A stretch of 41,577 nt of DNA from Acidobacteriota bacterium (GTDB taxonomy: Bacteria; Acidobacteriota; Blastocatellia; Chloracidobacteriales; Chloracidobacteriaceae), in contig JACQXX010000051.1 of NCBI GenBank assembly GCA_016208495.1, positions 1 through 41,577 on the forward strand, given 5' to 3'. Below are positions 5,814-26,020 of this stretch, in pieces. Made by a program: the position numbers and the translations under genes. Position 1 is the first letter of the stretch. Each line of letters opens with the position of its first letter. The notes beneath the pieces are model-generated. The model saw only the letters and a list, made by a program, of their open reading frames with translations. It had not been told where the DNA came from and ran no database searches.

Positions 5814-6662
5814 TTACCGTTTTGGAATTGACGCCCGTAAAGAATTCTCCCATTTTGAGTCTCGTAGCGGTTTGATTCGTTTTTCCCACGTGCTAAGCAC
5901 ATATCGGTGATACTCATCAAGATTGGCTGGGAGTGCACCATTTTTTTGTTGATCAATGAGGAAATCAATTTCATTTGTAAAGTAATTAAAACTTTTTATC
6001 GGTTGTTTTCCAGTTGTCCCTCTCAATTTCTTTTCTATAGTGGAGATAAATGCAATTTCAAGTAACCGAATGTCTATTGTGTTGTACGGGGCTCCCTCCC
6101 GATCATCACGCCGGGTCCATTGTTGGTTTGTGTACGTTTCATACCGCCTGATGATATCGTCATGTGTTTTAAATATCATCATGTCATCATGTGACAGCAT
6201 GCTGTCCACCACTTTATCAAAGCTGGTGGACAGCTTTTTGTCGAATCGTTCGAAGTGGTGGACAGCAAGCGTTTCCCAGAATTCTTGTTTTGTAATACCA
6301 AATTGAGCACAGAAAACATTGATTCTTTTAAGGATATCTTCATTTATTCGAATTGTTTCATGCTTACGTTGATGGCGATCACCTGGCCTTGACTTTATTT
6401 GCTGTCCACTATTTTGAGCCTTTTGCTGTCCACTGCTTTGAGTGGTGGACAGCATGCTGTCCACCGCAGGTTGAGTAGTGGACAGCATGCTGTCCACCAG
6501 AATGACTGGCTGTCCACCTACTTGAGCCTCTTGCTGTCCACCATTTTGTTTCTTCGTAGTCACACCCGGATGAACAGCTAGCGGGTCACGGCTGGATTTT
6601 TTATTGGATTTTTGGTCAAGTGCATATAGAGCGGCAAAGCCAGTGTATTTCTTCTCAGACAT
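5814..6662 (-). CDS. Ribbon-helix-helix-like DNA-binding protein with internal DNA palindromes
   Basis: A 282-residue protein, second gene of a two-gene unit, overlapping the ATPase gene by 8 bases (ATGTCTGA), so probably translationally coupled. Residues 102-137 have the strand-helix-helix pattern of a ribbon-helix-helix domain (HETIRINEDILKRINVF, then GITKQEFWETLAVHHF). Residues 40-90 are low-complexity and come from the DNA word TGGACAG/CTGTCCA, giving GGQQ in one frame and VDSMLST in another. The C-terminal part (195-270) contains PIKSFNYFTNEIDFLIDQQ, reminiscent of the C-terminal helical domain of some plasmid replication proteins; that resemblance is weak. It likely binds the repeats in its own gene. 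Composition is AT-rich relative to neighbours, which suggests acquisition. Precise function unknown. Confidence 0.6.
   Translation of the reverse strand: MSEKKYTGFAALYALDQKSNKKSSRDPLAVHPGVTTKKQNGGQQEAQVGGQPVILVDSMLSTTQPAVDSMLSTTQSSGQQKAQNSGQQIKSRPGDRHQRKHETIRINEDILKRINVFCAQFGITKQEFWETLAVHHFERFDKKLSTSFDKVVDSMLSHDDMMIFKTHDDIIRRYETYTNQQWTRRDDREGAPYNTIDIRLLEIAFISTIEKKLRGTTGKQPIKSFNYFTNEIDFLIDQQKNGALPANLDEYHRYVLSTWEKRIKPLRDSKWENSLRASIPKR
6191..6542. repeat. Iteron-like array of CTGTCCAC half-sites, including 20-base palindromes
   Basis: The word CTGTCCAC or its complement occurs at 6202, 6226, 6258, 6402, 6426, 6445, 6457, 6478, 6490, 6510 and 6534. Two pairs form the perfect palindrome GTGGACAGCATGCTGTCCAC (6445-6464 and 6478-6497), the first extending to 22 bases with flanking GG/CC. 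A third, imperfect pair lies at 6191-6210. All are inside the RHH-like gene. Centre-to-centre spacing in the dense part (6402-6542) is about 20 to 33 bases, two to three helical turns. I noticed no other copies in the window. Confidence 0.9.
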
Positions 6663-7443
6663 GGAACACCGCCTCCGAAATAGCTTGATTTACGGTTTCG
6701 AGAGAAACGGTTTTTTCTCCCTGTAATAAAGACAGCTCATGTGCTACATGGCAAATCTTAAGGACTTCACGAGGAATACCGCCTGAGACTTCATAGATCT
6801 TGTCTACTTGGAGATCAGAAAAAGGATTCTTAATTTCAGCATGTTCACACCGGAAAGAAATCATGGCACGGGTTTCCCCAAGAGTGAGAGGATCTAGTGT
6901 TGAAGGAGCAAAAATTCGGGAGCGGATAGCTTTTTTAGATGGGTCAAGTAAATTCTCTCGGAGTTCAATTTGGCCTGCTAATACAAATTGAATCAACTTA
7001 GCCTGATTGGTTTCAAAGTTTAACATTGTGCGAATCAATTCCAACATCTTAGGGTTGAGTCGTTGGGATTCGTCGATGAAAAAAACTACATTGGTACCTT
7101 TTTCGAAAGAATCAACCAAAAACCCTCGAAATGCCTGTTCCTGATCATACAGGGACCGTTTGGGCAAAATATCAAACTCACCGCACAATGCTTTCAAAAA
7201 GGCAAAGTCAGAAGCGAACGAGGGTGTTGGAATCAATGCCGCGAGCGAATCTTCCCGAGACGCATATTCTCCATACAACAAACGCAAAACACTTGATTTT
7301 CCCATTCCAATATCTCCAAGCACACAAGTAAGTCCCTGGCGGCGATCAATGGTAAACCGGACTTTATGGAGAACCGCCTTGAGCGAAGGGGTAAGGTAAA
7401 GGTATGCCGGGTTTGGACTGATTGAAAAAGGGGAGTTCATCAT
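6655..7443 (-). CDS. ExeA/TniB-like AAA+ ATPase
   Basis: A 262-residue protein opening with SPFSISPNPAYLYLTPS, the typical start of ExeA/TniB-type ATPases. Walker A is GDIGMGKS (43-50), Walker B VVFFIDE (119-125), followed by the FVLAGQ sensor-like segment (153-157) and candidate arginine fingers in RSR (174-176). A C-terminal winged-helix-like lid contains SGGIPREVLKICHVA. This class includes TniB/TnsC transposition regulators, which assemble on DNA and recruit partners, and ExeA, a secretion-associated ATPase. No transposase, integrase or secretin gene is adjacent; the partner is an RHH-like protein with palindromic repeats. I infer a DNA-bound maintenance, partition or targeting role. Confidence 0.75.
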   Translation of the reverse strand: MMNSPFSISPNPAYLYLTPSLKAVLHKVRFTIDRRQGLTCVLGDIGMGKSSVLRLLYGEYASREDSLAALIPTPSFASDFAFLKALCGEFDILPKRSLYDQEQAFRGFLVDSFEKGTNVVFFIDESQRLNPKMLELIRTMLNFETNQAKLIQFVLAGQIELRENLLDPSKKAIRSRIFAPSTLDPLTLGETRAMISFRCEHAEIKNPFSDLQVDKIYEVSGGIPREVLKICHVAHELSLLQGEKTVSLETVNQAISEAVFHV

Positions 7444-7695: not shown

Positions 7696-9156
7696 TCAGA
7701 TCAATTCGGCCAACCGTTCTTCGAGAAGTTCAATGCGGCGATCAAACGGCAGGCGAATCAGTTTGTCAATCAGGTCGGTATCGCCCATTTCAGCCAGGAC
7801 GACCGTTACTTCCCACATGATTTCCTGCCGCCGCCGCCGGCTTTCATTCTTGGCGGGCGCTTCGTTGGGATCTTGCCATTCTTTTGAAACGGCTTCGAGG
7901 AACCGCGACTGTTCTGAATGCAGTTCGTTCACAATTGATTGAATCACGTGAATGCGTGCCAGGTGGGCATCTTCGACCGTCATGCGGTGGCGGGGTTCAG
8001 TTGCATAGCGCCGGAAGCGTTCCACAATCCGCTCGGCAACCGCCAGCGGCAACCCGGCGGCGGCGGCCATATCCGACGGTTTGGCCGTGACATACGCCGA
8101 CAGCGTCGAGACTCCAGCCGAAAACAGGCGACGAATCGCCGGGCGACCCACGCCCTGAACTTGCTTGAGAATCGAGCTGATGATGACCGATTCCGGCGTG
8201 TTTAAATCGTCAGGAATTGAAAAGACTTTTGGAAGGAAATTTTCAAGCTCGGAATAGGCGTCCGTGATTTCAATGCGCAGCAAGGCATCAGTATCAATAT
8301 CGTTTCCGTACGAGTTCTCAGCCTTGCGCAAAACAGCTTCAAATTCTTCCAGGTGACCTGAAAGACTGTTGTAGCCAACCCCCTGGGCCGCACTTCGAAC
8401 CGATTTGCAGGCAGCCAGGCAGGGTTCAATCCAGTCACGACCTCCACGACCAAGCCGGACCTGGGCGACAAACTCACGCATCGGTCGGACAAAAACCATG
8501 GCGATTTCGGTAAAGAGTTCGCGAACGGTTTCGTCATCCTGTTCGGTCTGAGCTTCATCCCCTTGAAACGCCCCATCCAGCGTGCTGTCCAGTGATTCGC
8601 CAATCCCTTCCAGAAAATTCCCGATATCGTCTTCACCAATCGTCAATAAATCAAACGGGTCGTCATGCGGGAAGCTTTCGCGGGGCGGTGGTTCGGCTGA
8701 GAGCGCCGCCAGTTGTTCGGTACGCGACGGGACTTCCATGACCTTGCGAAGCAGATTGATCGTTGGAATCGCCTGGGCCGGCACGATCCCCCGCTCAAAC
8801 CCCTGGGCCCGGGCAGCCAAACCACGAAAAATGGCTGACGCTTCACCTAGACTTTGCCGAAGCTTGGCAAAAAAATCATCTTCCACTTCGCTTAATCGCC
8901 ACCCGGCCACCCGGACCAGCTCGCCCAAATCAATCATCATCGCCACGGCAATTTCGTCATAAATCGGCATGGGATGGCTTTTGAGTTGGTGGCCAAACCG
9001 CTCAGCCGCCAGGGCGATGGTGTCGGTATGGATCGCGACCTGTTCAAAATAGGAATCCGCTAGCTGATTATTGCGAACCGCCAGGCGCTCCAGGCAGTGA
9101 GAGAGTAGAACCGAACTATCATCAATGGCGGCGACAAATTCTGCGATACTGTTCAT
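7696..9156 (-). CDS. Helix-hairpin-helix protein with a degenerate Hpt-like domain
   Basis: A 486-residue soluble protein, mostly helical and acidic in the middle (DDPFDLLTIGEDD near 165-178). Residues about 240-262 read DWIEPCLAACKSVRSAAQG, resembling a histidine-phosphotransfer helix, but the phospho-acceptor His position is not His. Residues about 333-392 hold a double helix-hairpin-helix-like segment (VQGVGRPAIRRLFSAGVSTL, later AAAAGLPLAVAERIVERFRR), a fold that binds DNA non-specifically or mediates protein contacts. It may be a chemosensory or DNA-associated scaffold; no neighbour supports a specific pathway. It appears monocistronic, ending in a strong hairpin. Confidence 0.5.
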   Translation of the reverse strand: MNSIAEFVAAIDDSSVLLSHCLERLAVRNNQLADSYFEQVAIHTDTIALAAERFGHQLKSHPMPIYDEIAVAMMIDLGELVRVAGWRLSEVEDDFFAKLRQSLGEASAIFRGLAARAQGFERGIVPAQAIPTINLLRKVMEVPSRTEQLAALSAEPPPRESFPHDDPFDLLTIGEDDIGNFLEGIGESLDSTLDGAFQGDEAQTEQDDETVRELFTEIAMVFVRPMREFVAQVRLGRGGRDWIEPCLAACKSVRSAAQGVGYNSLSGHLEEFEAVLRKAENSYGNDIDTDALLRIEITDAYSELENFLPKVFSIPDDLNTPESVIISSILKQVQGVGRPAIRRLFSAGVSTLSAYVTAKPSDMAAAAGLPLAVAERIVERFRRYATEPRHRMTVEDAHLARIHVIQSIVNELHSEQSRFLEAVSKEWQDPNEAPAKNESRRRRQEIMWEVTVVLAEMGDTDLIDKLIRLPFDRRIELLEERLAELI

Positions 9157-11803: not shown

Positions 11804-11861
11804 GACTACTCGCTACTCGCTACTCGCTACTCGCTACTCGCTTTATTTCGCTACTTCGCTC
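11804..11861 (-). repeat. TAGCGAG heptamer array, left arm of an operon-flanking inverted repeat
   Basis: Read on -, tandem TAGCGAG units end at a GACTACTCGC-type terminus. The first 36 bases are a perfect inverted copy of the matching end of 13643-13707, and a further 16-base block (ATTTCGCTACTTCGCT) is also shared. The array reaches into the stop codon of the permease gene at 11860. Confidence 0.85.
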
Positions 11862-13636: not shown

Positions 13637-13642
13637 AAGTTA

Positions 13643-13707
13643 GTAGCGAAGTAGCGAAGTAGCGAAATAGTGAGTAGCGAGTAGCGAGTAGCGAGTAGCG
13701 AGTAGTC
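13643..13707 (+). repeat. GTAGCGAA/TAGCGAG array, right arm of the operon-flanking inverted repeat
   Basis: It begins with 8-base GTAGCGAA units and passes into 7-base TAGCGAG units, ending in TAGTC. The last 36 bases mirror 11804-11839 exactly. It begins 6 bases upstream of the ATPase start codon, so it probably occupies part of that gene's 5' leader. Confidence 0.85.
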
Positions 13708-19767: not shown

Positions 19768-19773
19768 AAAGCG

Positions 19774-19984
19774 CGAGTAGCGAGTAGCGAGTGGCGAGTA
19801 GTCAGACAAAAAGTAAAATCAGAATTCTGGGATTCCAGGTTTGGTAAATTGAGTCTGAATCAACTGCCTTATTCAAAAAGAACCTTGGCTTGACTACTCG
19901 CCACTCGCTCTTTGGATTAACTACTCGCTACTCGCTTTGGTTCGCTACTCGCTTTGGTTCGCTACTCGCTTTGGTTCGCTACTC
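19774..19984. repeat. Inverted TAGCGAG-array element
   Basis: The left array 19774-19805 and right array 19891-19984 are in opposite orientation; 19787-19804 and 19891-19908 match perfectly over 18 bases. An unrelated-looking core of about 85 bases lies between them. The right array runs into the 3' end of the gene at 19962 and provides its last codons and stop. Confidence 0.85.
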
Positions 19985-24084: not shown

Positions 24085-24345
24085 GTCAGTAGCCAGTAGT
24101 CAGTAGTCAGTAGTCAGTAGTCAGTAGTCAGTAGTCAGTAGTTGATAAGTCAGTAGACAAAACCCGGGTCGTTGAATCCGTCGAATTCTTGAAAAGAATT
24201 GTTCCTAAATGATTCAAATAAAACAAAATACACTTGACACGAATTCCAAAATCCCAACACTCGACTACTGACTACTGACTACTGACTACTGACTACTGAC
24301 TACTGACTACTGACTACTGACTACTGACTACTGACTACTGACTAT
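24085..24345. repeat. Interspersed repeat element, family A, copy 1
   Basis: Opposed TAGTCAG arrays (24085-24142 and 24263-24345) flank a 120-base core. On - the core contains GTGTTGGGATTT, TGTCAAGTGTAT, AATTCTTTT and GGGTTTTGTCTACT in the same order as copy 2 at 30400-30560, so the two share ancestry. The right array supplies the last three codons and stop of the OmpA-fused gene; the left array displaces the leader of the permease gene. Confidence 0.85.
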
Positions 24346-26020
24346 TGATGTTGATGCCCGTGGTATCTGACTCCTTGAGCCATTGCCAGACTGACTGGGC
24401 CCGGTCACGTGACAGTCTCAAATTTGTATTGTCATCGCCGGTATTATCTGTGTGGCCTTCAATTGTAATTTGAGTGTCCGAAGCCCTGATCAGCAAGTTT
24501 CGAATCTCTTGCAGGACAGCCAGTTCCGAGGGTTTGATTTTGGCGGAGCCTGAATCGAAGGTGATTTGATAATTGGCTTTGACGACCGTTCCCGGATTTG
24601 TCGTTCCAGTCGGAAACTGTGCCTGATAGACCGGTGTCGAACTGCGTTCGTCGGTCATTTCCTTAATAAAACTGAGGTCCACGACCTGAGCAACTGGAGT
24701 GAACGCCTCAAGTCGTTGTGGCATCAGCTTTTGCAGCCGTTTGGCGTGATCGAGGTAGGTAATGCCGAAAATACTGCGCTCAATCGGCTGATTGCTTTCC
24801 AGGCCGAACAAATGGCGCACATCAGCGATATTGTTGACCCGTGACCCACCTAGCGAAACCCCGTTTTCGGTCGCACCGTGAAAATATTTGTACCAGAAAT
24901 TCGGTCCGCGCCCGTCCAGATTGAAAATAACTGAATTCAATGTGGCGACACGGGTTTTCAGGTACTCGTCATCGGCTTTGATCCGCTCGTTGGATCGGGC
25001 AATACACCGCAGAAGTGTTTGGACATAATCACGATGTTGATTGATCCAGTCAGCATTGCCAAACAGGATATGGGGCATCATGTAGCTATATTCTTTGGTT
25101 GAAACAATCTTTTGCAGCTTTTCGGTGGCGTTTTTGTAGGTCACCGTTGATCGCCCCTCAACCGCCATCACATCGCCTGGAGTCCAGGTGGCAACGGCAT
25201 CAATCTGGTGCTCTTCCTGTTGCCCGGTTTGCCGGTTCTTAAGGCTGACTTTGGTGTTTTTGACAAATTTCTGAGCCGCTTCGATATGATCGGTGGCATT
25301 GACAAAGTTAACCGCCGCTGGGTCATACACGGTTTCGTCGGGATTGATTGGAATCTGGTTGTCAGCCGCCCAATCAACCGTCACATTCCAGTCACAATAT
25401 GGCACCGCAGTGACCACCAGTGCACCCCGCGCTTTTTGGGGATCCTCTTTCCACGAAGCCGGCCCCATCAAACAATCTTCGCCAAACGAATAGCCGCTGC
25501 TCCAAACGACTTTGGCTTTGTTGCCACGCAGCAATTTGTTTGCACCGGCAATGTCAACCGCCGCCTGATCGCCCGTCGTCGTGACAAATTGCATTTGCCC
25601 GGCAGCCAGAGCTTTGATTTGTTCAGAAGTATCATTTTGAACAATCAACCGGGTATTGGTGATGCCAGCCTGACAGAGGCAGCTTCCCGAATAATCACCT
25701 GATTTTCCAGGTCCGCCCACTGCATCAATAATGCCGCTGGTGGTTTGCCATGTCCAAATCCCAATTGTAACTTCCGGATTGTCGCTGGTTCGCTCCGGTG
25801 GTTTTACCTGAGATGCAGGAAAATCTTTGACCTCAGTCGGAAGTTTCTCTCGCGGGTCAAGCACAACCGACCCAACTGGTAAATCCCCAGTTGGGTTCAC
25901 GGTTCCCTTAAATCTGTCTAACATTCCCAACCGATCCAACCCAAAATAGGTTAAACCCAGTAATAGACCAACAATCAAAATAACCGCTCCAGGACCAAGC
26001 TGAACGCGACCGATTCTCAT
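24335..26020 (-). CDS. Substrate-binding protein fused to a truncated OmpA-like domain
   Basis: I chose the ATG at 26020 (MRIGRVQLGPGAV, with AAGGGA nine bases upstream) over a longer frame from 26182. The 561-residue protein has one N-terminal membrane helix (GAVILIVGLLLGLTYFGL), a nitrate/taurine (NMT1-like) binding domain (about 75-400) and a C-terminal OmpA-like peptidoglycan-binding domain (from about 470, with TIEGHTDNTG and LRLSRDRAQSVWQWL). The OmpA domain stops soon after the second helix; the usual last strand and arginine-rich end are missing. The final NSQ and TAG stop lie inside the TAGTCAG array. A binding protein tied to peptidoglycan and the inner membrane is unusual for an importer. 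Confidence 0.8.
   Translation of the reverse strand: MRIGRVQLGPGAVILIVGLLLGLTYFGLDRLGMLDRFKGTVNPTGDLPVGSVVLDPREKLPTEVKDFPASQVKPPERTSDNPEVTIGIWTWQTTSGIIDAVGGPGKSGDYSGSCLCQAGITNTRLIVQNDTSEQIKALAAGQMQFVTTTGDQAAVDIAGANKLLRGNKAKVVWSSGYSFGEDCLMGPASWKEDPQKARGALVVTAVPYCDWNVTVDWAADNQIPINPDETVYDPAAVNFVNATDHIEAAQKFVKNTKVSLKNRQTGQQEEHQIDAVATWTPGDVMAVEGRSTVTYKNATEKLQKIVSTKEYSYMMPHILFGNADWINQHRDYVQTLLRCIARSNERIKADDEYLKTRVATLNSVIFNLDGRGPNFWYKYFHGATENGVSLGGSRVNNIADVRHLFGLESNQPIERSIFGITYLDHAKRLQKLMPQRLEAFTPVAQVVDLSFIKEMTDERSSTPVYQAQFPTGTTNPGTVVKANYQITFDSGSAKIKPSELAVLQEIRNLLIRASDTQITIEGHTDNTGDDNTNLRLSRDRAQSVWQWLKESDTTGININSQ

Follow-up and report, generated by a model that had tools for sequence, protein, structure and literature searches.

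The two-gene cassette

The window, by which we mean the whole stretch of 41,577 bases that was analysed, carries a gene for a predicted DNA-binding adaptor of 282 aa at 5814–6662 on the minus strand, defined by its open reading frame, an AlphaFold2 model, VIA-align and a family alignment. An AAA+ ATPase gene (262 aa; 6655–7443, minus strand) lies upstream of the adaptor gene and overlaps its start by 8 bp. The adaptor is composed, in order, of a linker whose codons contain an array of a short DNA word, an RHH-like domain, a second linker with array, and a DnaD-like C-terminal domain. The genes flanking this cassette encode a CHAT/TPR protein (downstream) and a helix-hairpin-helix protein, and a DEAD-box helicase and a UDP-glucose dehydrogenase are found further away; judging from this gene content, the locus looks chromosomal. 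No transposase is present in the two flanking genes, and no helicase loader P among the neighbours of the operon.

The AlphaFold2 model of the adaptor, a monomer built on 13 family members, has a mean pLDDT of 66.5, with values <50 at residues 1–9, 11–95 and 141–164. The RHH-like domain was delimited with VIA-align to residues 98–142 (codons at 6237–6371, minus strand). The best matches of this region of the predicted monomer are CopG, HicB and 1myl, at 1.4–1.5 Å and Z of about 5 (1myl, Z 5.0 over 45 residues at 1.4 Å; CopG 2cpg, Z 4.9). The model has helices at residues 108–121 and 125–141, and DSSP assigns no strand in the monomer. Residues 9, 11 and 13 of Arc contact DNA bases. In an ungapped overlay on 1myl, which we take to be an Arc variant, these positions correspond to H101, T103 and R105 of the adaptor (codons within 6348–6362, minus strand), and R105 is invariant in 19 aligned family sequences. 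The RHH assignment, previously guessed from the letters of the sequence, is favoured by the structure model, with the reservation that the Z scores are only about 5.

The DnaD-like domain, residues 166–277 (codons at 5832–6167, minus strand), is the part shared by the family and was assigned with VIA-align and hhalign. For residues 168–260 the best matches are 2zc2 (Z 5.8, 70 residues, 3.0 Å) and 9a5c (Z 5.8, 78 residues, 4.5 Å), a modest similarity given that both Z scores are under 8. For the window adaptor, Pfam gives no match to the DnaD-like domain, and none to Phage_rep_O with E allowed up to 1. Foldseek with the adaptor model returned nothing under E 0.001, and the RHH-type proteins L034 and L036 have no PHROG match.

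The ATPase matches PF13401 (E 1.2e-18) and phrog_296, a DNA transposition protein (E 1.2e-15), and Foldseek with its model (pLDDT 64.7) retrieves an ORC/Cdc6- and TnsC-like fold. It is of the AAA_22 type with an ordinary Walker A motif, GDIGMGKSS; the deviant Walker A of ParA is absent, so the window ATPase is not a ParA.

A repeated DNA word inside the adaptor gene

The sequence-only reading had pointed to an eleven-copy repeat within the adaptor gene, and this is borne out: CTGTCCAC/GTGGACAG occurs in 11 exact copies, all located at 6202–6541, with none elsewhere in the 41,577 bases. In 100 dinucleotide shuffles of the whole window the same word occurs 1.33 times on average and at most 4 times. 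When the codons of the adaptor gene were shuffled synonymously with the protein kept (n = 300), the commonest 8-mer never exceeded 5 copies, against 11 in the real gene, and the repeat is therefore not a mere by-product of the peptide.

Eight copies form the main array at 6402–6541 in the N-terminal linker codons, starting at 6402, 6426, 6445, 6457, 6478, 6490, 6510 and 6534, with a spacing in gene order of 24, 20, 12, 21, 12, 19 and 24. The second array at 6202–6265 has three copies, starting at 6202, 6226 and 6258. In terms of codons, eight words fall in the N-terminal stretch, two between the folded domains and one (6258–6265) in the codons for the end of the second RHH helix, where the peptide is LAVHH; hence 10 of the 11 lie in codons of low-confidence linkers of the AlphaFold2 model. 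The codons of the β-strand contain no copy. The palindromes described earlier are also present, as two perfect 20-bp copies of GTGGACAGCATGCTGTCCAC at 6445–6464 and 6478–6497, read directly from the sequence, and a third of this type at 6190–6209 that is damaged at one end.

The readings GQQ/GQP, VDS/LST and AVH that had been named are all found in the gene. The statement that the word is kept in all three reading frames is wrong for the window gene, in which frames 0 and 1 are used on each strand (CTGTCCAC 3 times and once, GTGGACAG 3 and 4 times), i.e. four of the six strand/frame settings; the words of L037 and L098 use five of six each. The underlying claim, that the DNA word is conserved beyond what the peptide would dictate, stands on the excess over 300 of 300 synonymous shuffles, on the use of both strands with two frames each, and on the retention of 9 of 11 words between two related genes (see below).

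The AT content is 66% at 6301–6400, 46% at 6401–6500 and 49% at 6501–6600. An AT-rich element beside the array was considered for 6301–6400, but this stretch encodes the RHH domain.

In the window's own genome (8.38 Mb), the 9-mer GCTGTCCAC is found 62 times and its reversed control 63 times; 11 of the 62 occurrences belong to the window gene. The remaining 51 are scattered, with no two of them closer than 162 bp. No second cluster of the word was detected in this genome, and none of GGTGGCTAC in the related genome G001. Genome-wide depletion of the words was considered as well. In the own genome CTGTCCAC occurs 180 times and the reversed word 343 times, but GCTGTCCAC is at 62 versus 63; GGTGGCTAC occurs 34 times in G001, including 8 array copies, compared with 177, which may reflect TAG avoidance. 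We draw no conclusion from these counts. Across 17 flank stretches of 5.9–20 kb, only 3 own words lie outside the respective genes, and none just upstream of the operon. In the window, the word nearest to the upstream end of the operon is about 900 bp inside it.

A family of adaptors with private words and two ATPases

Adaptor matches were found in 5 of 98 genomes searched, with three copies in the own genome and 14, one of them a fragment, in G001 (Blastocatellia MAG SSF51). Profile searches found adaptors in 11 of 162 genomes of the class and in at least 9 of 396 sampled genomes of the phylum, the latter with the best five or fewer candidates scored per genome. No two of the 13 full RHH-type genes of G001 have the same top word. 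The sequence-only reading had missed these larger facts, namely that there is a family whose paralogues differ in their words, and that the ATPases are swapped.

Each of 19 RHH-type genes holds 7–12 copies of its own word. Of 29 family genes, 23 have a word array beyond that of any of 300 synonymous shuffles, including 18 of 20 of the RHH type and 5 of 9 of the others, which are mostly O-type and whose private words are often in one frame. The six remaining genes (L044, L045, L097, L099, L101 and L102) are matched by 1–12 of 300 shuffles; the two RHH-type exceptions are L044, matched by one, and L045, which has a weak word, by three. In a set of eight O-type genes, read at those of 16 loci that passed a motif filter and sharing one gene with the former set, three beat all 60 shuffles and five, including L102, are matched by 1–16 of 60. 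The single-frame bias of some O-type relatives is seen in L096 (14 of 18 words) and L100 (6 of 6).

In the 19 × 19 table of words against genes, off-diagonal counts are 0–4 except for L036/L042, L035/L038 and L034/L044, which have the same or overlapping words and are all cross-genome pairs. It is noted that some words within G001 are only one base apart (CCGTCCAC/GCGTCCAC and GTAGCCAC/CTAGCCAC), which weakens the case for their separate specificity. The spacers of the arrays share TTCAA/TTGAA (as GTTCAA, GTTTGA), the top-ranked 5-mer, in 15 of 18 RHH genes; with L045 and L046 left out, the array spans hold it 75 times, compared with the 29.5 that synonymous shuffles lead one to expect. This shared element could reflect a common factor or DNA bendability.

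More distant relatives have a lambda-O-like winged helix in place of the RHH domain. L062 passes the Phage_rep_O cut-off (33.5 versus 28.7 bits) and three other O-type matches are below it. All five O-type proteins compared with PHROG match phage 'replication initiation O-like' families, and four of them also match phrog_186, a DnaD-like helicase loader. The C-terminal domains of the RHH and O types are related (hhalign probability 95.7, E 1.1e-8).

An ATPase adjoins or is fused to the adaptor in 37 of 41 relatives, 30 of them with ParA and 7 with AAA+. In the first set of adaptor genes it is adjacent in 27 of 30 (ParA 22, AAA+ 5); of the three others, two are at contig ends and L045 has a ParA nearly 6 kb off. 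In the second set it is adjacent or fused in 10 of 11 (ParA 8 including one fused, AAA+ 2), L148 having none. The ParA and AAA+ profiles behind these assignments were built from the same loci that they classify, and Pfam agrees for the six partners checked. Both adaptor types, RHH and O, are found with both ATPases. The ParA partner of L036 matches ParA/Soj structures, with a best E of 2.6e-31. At L150:3069-5126 (G280:C49) an open frame of 685 aa fuses ParA (residues 17–278) to an O-type adaptor (278–674). A second, separate ParA-adaptor pair is located 5.5 kb beyond this fusion on the same contig.

The neighbours of other cassettes vary, and include a sigma-54 regulator, a glutamate dehydrogenase-like protein, a radical SAM protein and TerD. 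A plasmid origin of the G001 copies was considered and rejected: five short contigs (5.9–8.1 kb) and one of 17.6 kb lack exact terminal overlaps of 20–399 bp, so that there is no sign of circles among these six. The coverage across 12 G001 loci is similar, at 5.1–9.6. Searches with tblastn of the window protein and the O-type L080 against phages and plasmids gave nothing, and three scans of viral contigs found no adaptor relatives.

Conservation at the DNA level and apparent exchange of cassette parts

To follow individual words between related genes, positions were selected by the words of the first gene of each pair only. From L036 to L042, whose ParA partners are 83% identical and whose adaptors agree at 186 of 340 positions, 9 of the 11 words have stayed in place; of the other 8-mers in this stretch, 18 of 328 have done so. 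The corresponding figures are 4 of 6 words against 8 of 223 other 8-mers from L035 to L038, and 15 of 16 against 152 of 351 from L095 to L096. In L036/L042, 95 of 104 word columns are identical, compared with 225 of 383 columns in the remainder of the array span. Of third codon positions, 31 of 36 agree within word columns and 134 of 304 beyond them; both comparisons are tilted towards identity by the choice of columns with a word in either gene. The refutation proposed earlier, by homologues that lack the DNA word and keep the peptide motifs, hardly applies here, because the homologues change word and peptide together.

The geometry of the array can be similar where the word differs. In gene order, the spacing is 20, 12, 21, 12, 19, 24 in L043 and 25, 20, 12, 33, 19, 24 in L034, compared with 24, 20, 12, 21, 12, 19, 24 in the window, and the words are GTAGCCAC (L043), CCGTCCAC (L034) and CTGTCCAC (window). 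In other paralogues the differences in spacing are larger. L043 adjoins the orthologue (72% identity, against 38% for the runner-up in that genome) of the window neighbour at 7696–9156, and its other flank has no match above 40%. Seen from the 7696–9156 side, L043 may therefore be the same locus as that of the window; if so, the word, the triad (HTR versus QNR) and the ATPase (AAA+ versus ParA) have all changed there.

A second comparison concerns L031 and L032 (G001, C56 and C88), whose flanks are 91% and 90% identical and whose adaptor-gene ends are 90% identical over 348 bp. The middle, comprising most of ParA and the adaptor N-terminal and RHH parts, is only 37–52% identical in 150-base steps. 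From the alignment, this looks like a specificity block replaced between conserved ends, or like two strain variants of one locus; it can also be read as a recent duplication with cassette exchange.

Two adaptor remnants were seen in G001. One, at L030:2871-3335 (C80, minus strand), is a piece of an O-type adaptor C-terminus (O-type profile E 5e-29) next to an intact RHH cassette, which gives the impression that one cassette has taken the place of another. The other, at L028:1495-1824 (C97), is a truncated adaptor C-terminus (residues 226–275, 54%); the intact cassette L023/L033 lies about 1.5 kb away.

Relationship between the word and the RHH domain

Over 19 RHH genes, with L045 left out for its weak word, word similarity correlates with the similarity of the β-strand residues 100–106 (r 0.348, reached by 0 of 10,000 permutations) and of the helix residues 107–129 (r 0.284, 6 of 10,000), compared with r 0.142 (1017 of 10,000) for the C-terminal domain. 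The strand correlation given the C-terminal domain is 0.328 (2 of 10,000). It is 0.251 (30 of 5000) without one member of each of two shared-word pairs, and 0.223 within G001 alone (293 of 5000, not significant). The 13 pairs with the same triad include those ranked 1st, 3rd, 6th and 14th in word similarity and extend down to 118th of 171, so that the same triad does not mean the same word; five genes of one genome with the triad KTR have different words. Comparison of the sequences is thus suggestive of a word that follows the RHH strand across the family, and leaves this unproven inside one genome.

At 14 ParA-bearing loci, the correlation with word similarity is 0.503 for the RHH domain (0 of 5000) and 0.236 for the C-terminal domain (180 of 5000). 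Co-inheritance of ParA with the RHH domain was considered and rejected, since the two show no correlation over these 14 loci (r -0.002), despite the block swap of L031/L032. Without three divergent ParAs, the values are 0.396 for ParA and word (25 of 5000), 0.409 for ParA and C-terminal domain (51 of 5000) and 0.148 for ParA and RHH domain (578 of 5000).

Proposed function and alternative explanations

The array, its conservation at the DNA level, the private words, the tendency of the word to follow the RHH domain across the family and the existence of two interchangeable ATPases are evident from comparing the sequences, and it is on these that an interpretation has to build. We regard it as very probable that the in-gene array is bound by the protein encoded in the same gene, i.e. 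that it is the cognate site of the gene's own product. Dimers of the RHH domain would bind the repeated word; the protein around this domain is predicted to be mostly disordered, which would leave the DNA there free to encode sites. The resulting nucleoprotein cluster would display the DnaD-like domain and engage the ATPase encoded by the upstream gene with which the adaptor gene overlaps, in the way that parS-bound ParB-type adaptors engage ParA. ATPase, adaptor and centromere-like in-gene array would then make up a self-contained cassette, and on balance we lean towards a partition-like cassette of these three parts. Whether it positions or stabilises DNA in a ParABS-like way is about an even call, made by analogy; DNA positioning as the outcome is something we infer, as we do the binding and the ATPase stimulation.

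MuB and ParA offer a parallel for the exchange of ATPases. The TnsC/ORC-like AAA+ protein that takes the place of ParA in the window could do the same job, binding DNA with ATP and being released by the site-bound adaptor. Published work describes release of ParA by ParB and an RHH adaptor, SegB, in partition (PMC9178275), a diffusion ratchet for ParA (PMC2950902) and removal of MuB from DNA near Mu ends (PMC2837660). Against the partition-like reading are the 13 partition systems that it would place on one chromosome without obvious need, the cassettes looking chromosomal, and the fact that the window ATPase is not a ParA.

The cassette could instead be an origin-like or initiator module, with iterons in the gene of an O-like initiator and an ATPase that assists helicase loading or controls firing, the chromosomal copies being captured parts of replicons. 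Relatives through the C-terminal domain do carry the Phage_rep_O winged helix, with all five O-type proteins matching O-like initiation families; the C-terminal domain is DnaD-like, and the AAA+ partner resembles ORC/Cdc6. We nevertheless consider this explanation unlikely. The loader P is absent from the operon neighbours in the window, the commonest partner is ParA, which is not known to be a helicase loader, and at least 13 firing origins per chromosome are implausible; moreover, the window protein lacks Phage_rep_O at E up to 1, and L034 and L036 lack a PHROG match.

RHH proteins are often autorepressors, and the sites lie within the operon itself, as would suit a protein that binds its own gene for repression or as a roadblock and has no role in moving DNA. 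This is rather improbable in our judgement, given that the upstream end of the operon is without the word, the nearest copy in the window being about 900 bp inside, and that eleven sites, conserved spacing and a dedicated ATPase exceed the needs of a repressor.

An equally speculative proposal, to which we likewise give little weight, is that the cassettes form a chromosomal repertoire of mutually exclusive replicon identities that acts as incompatibility-based immunity against plasmids and phages. A private word, its matching RHH or winged-helix reader and one of the two exchangeable ATPases would be traded as a block at fixed spots. A resident with the same word would compete for an incoming element or mis-partition it and thereby protect the host, and selection against shared words would drive word diversity. 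There are reported precedents for each half: ectopic copies of the lambda ori stop lambda (PMC4488673), and an IncC plasmid loses stability through parS-like sites on SGI1 (PMC10954446). The tblastn searches found no plasmid or phage relatives of the adaptors.

Selection on peptide repeats such as GQQ and VDSMLST, with the DNA repeats merely following, would fit the single-frame words of L096 (14 of 18) and L100 (6 of 6); it is highly improbable for the window gene, where two frames are used on both strands and 0 of 300 shuffles reach the real count, and for L036/L042, where third codon positions are identical at 31 of 36 in words versus 134 of 304 outside. Least credible of all are selfish short repeats spreading within the gene, for although palindromes here lie in coding sequence in more than one frame, and palindromic elements are known inside Rickettsia genes, there is no other cluster in the own genome, dispersed matches are at the control level, and every paralogue repeats a word of its own, at spacings that are conserved from one paralogue to another.

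Relation to known systems

The partition-like cassette that we favour has likenesses to several described systems. It had been stated from the sequence alone that no described system has this layout; this has to be corrected, since lambdoid phages carry O-binding iterons inside the O gene (PMC4488673, PMC7466680), with 4 iterons in lambda and 6 in Stx phages according to the latter. Like the window gene, the lambdoid O gene has repeats inside the coding sequence of the binder (here presumed), and the distant relatives share the O-type winged helix. Unlike lambda O, the window gene has an RHH-like domain and 11 short words on both strands, its ATPase lies upstream with no loader P, and there are chromosomal paralogues with different words.

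In type I partition systems with RHH adaptors (ParF/ParG, SegAB), as with the RHH-like adaptor here, the adaptor gene comes after that of the ATPase and is accompanied by a repeat array, and ParA is the commonest partner in the present family. The window cassette differs from them in the sites being inside the adaptor gene, in the DnaD-like domain fused to the RHH domain, in the AAA+ ATPase and in the presence of up to 13 paralogues per genome. The AAA+ regulators of transposition MuB, TnsC and TniB resemble the window ATPase in fold and in having a DNA-binding protein with site specificity, presumed in the window, for a neighbour, whereas the cassette is without a transposase and the partner is an RHH-DnaD-like adaptor. 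ParB and Noc (PMC7383237) are likewise related DNA-binding proteins that diverged in site preference; in the present family, by contrast, a single gene contains the site and encodes the protein, and the copies of the site have changed together. The window ATPase is not a ParA and its adaptor has no winged-helix match, and the cassette is therefore assigned to neither the ParABS nor the lambda O family; by analogy, it may work like ParABS or O. In the open-access literature, we found no published account of a private in-gene word per paralogue combined with two exchangeable ATPases. In-gene sites are thus known from lambda O, and the private-word repertoire with exchangeable parts appears to be new.

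Because a single gene transmits both the site and its presumed reader, this family offers a direct view of how DNA-binding specificity evolves. With ParA and a TnsC/ORC-like AAA+ protein occurring in the same place, the parallel suspected for ParA-type and MuB-type ATPases can be put to the test. Pairs of protein and site from these genes would also be candidates for tools to label or position DNA. The immunity proposal, if true, would amount to a new kind of defence.

Additional observations

About 2–3 kb from the RHH cassette of L036, at L036:13456-15232 (G000:C43), another ParA is located beside a ParB_N/HTH_ParB protein and a TerD-domain gene, in what is possibly a mobile region. The window itself contains 7-bp tandem repeats (CTACTCG, AGTAGCG, GCGAGTA, GTCAGTA and GACTACT), seen in the sequence at 11806–11842, 13642–13705, 19773–19801, 24085–24142 and 24263–24348, mostly between large ORFs.
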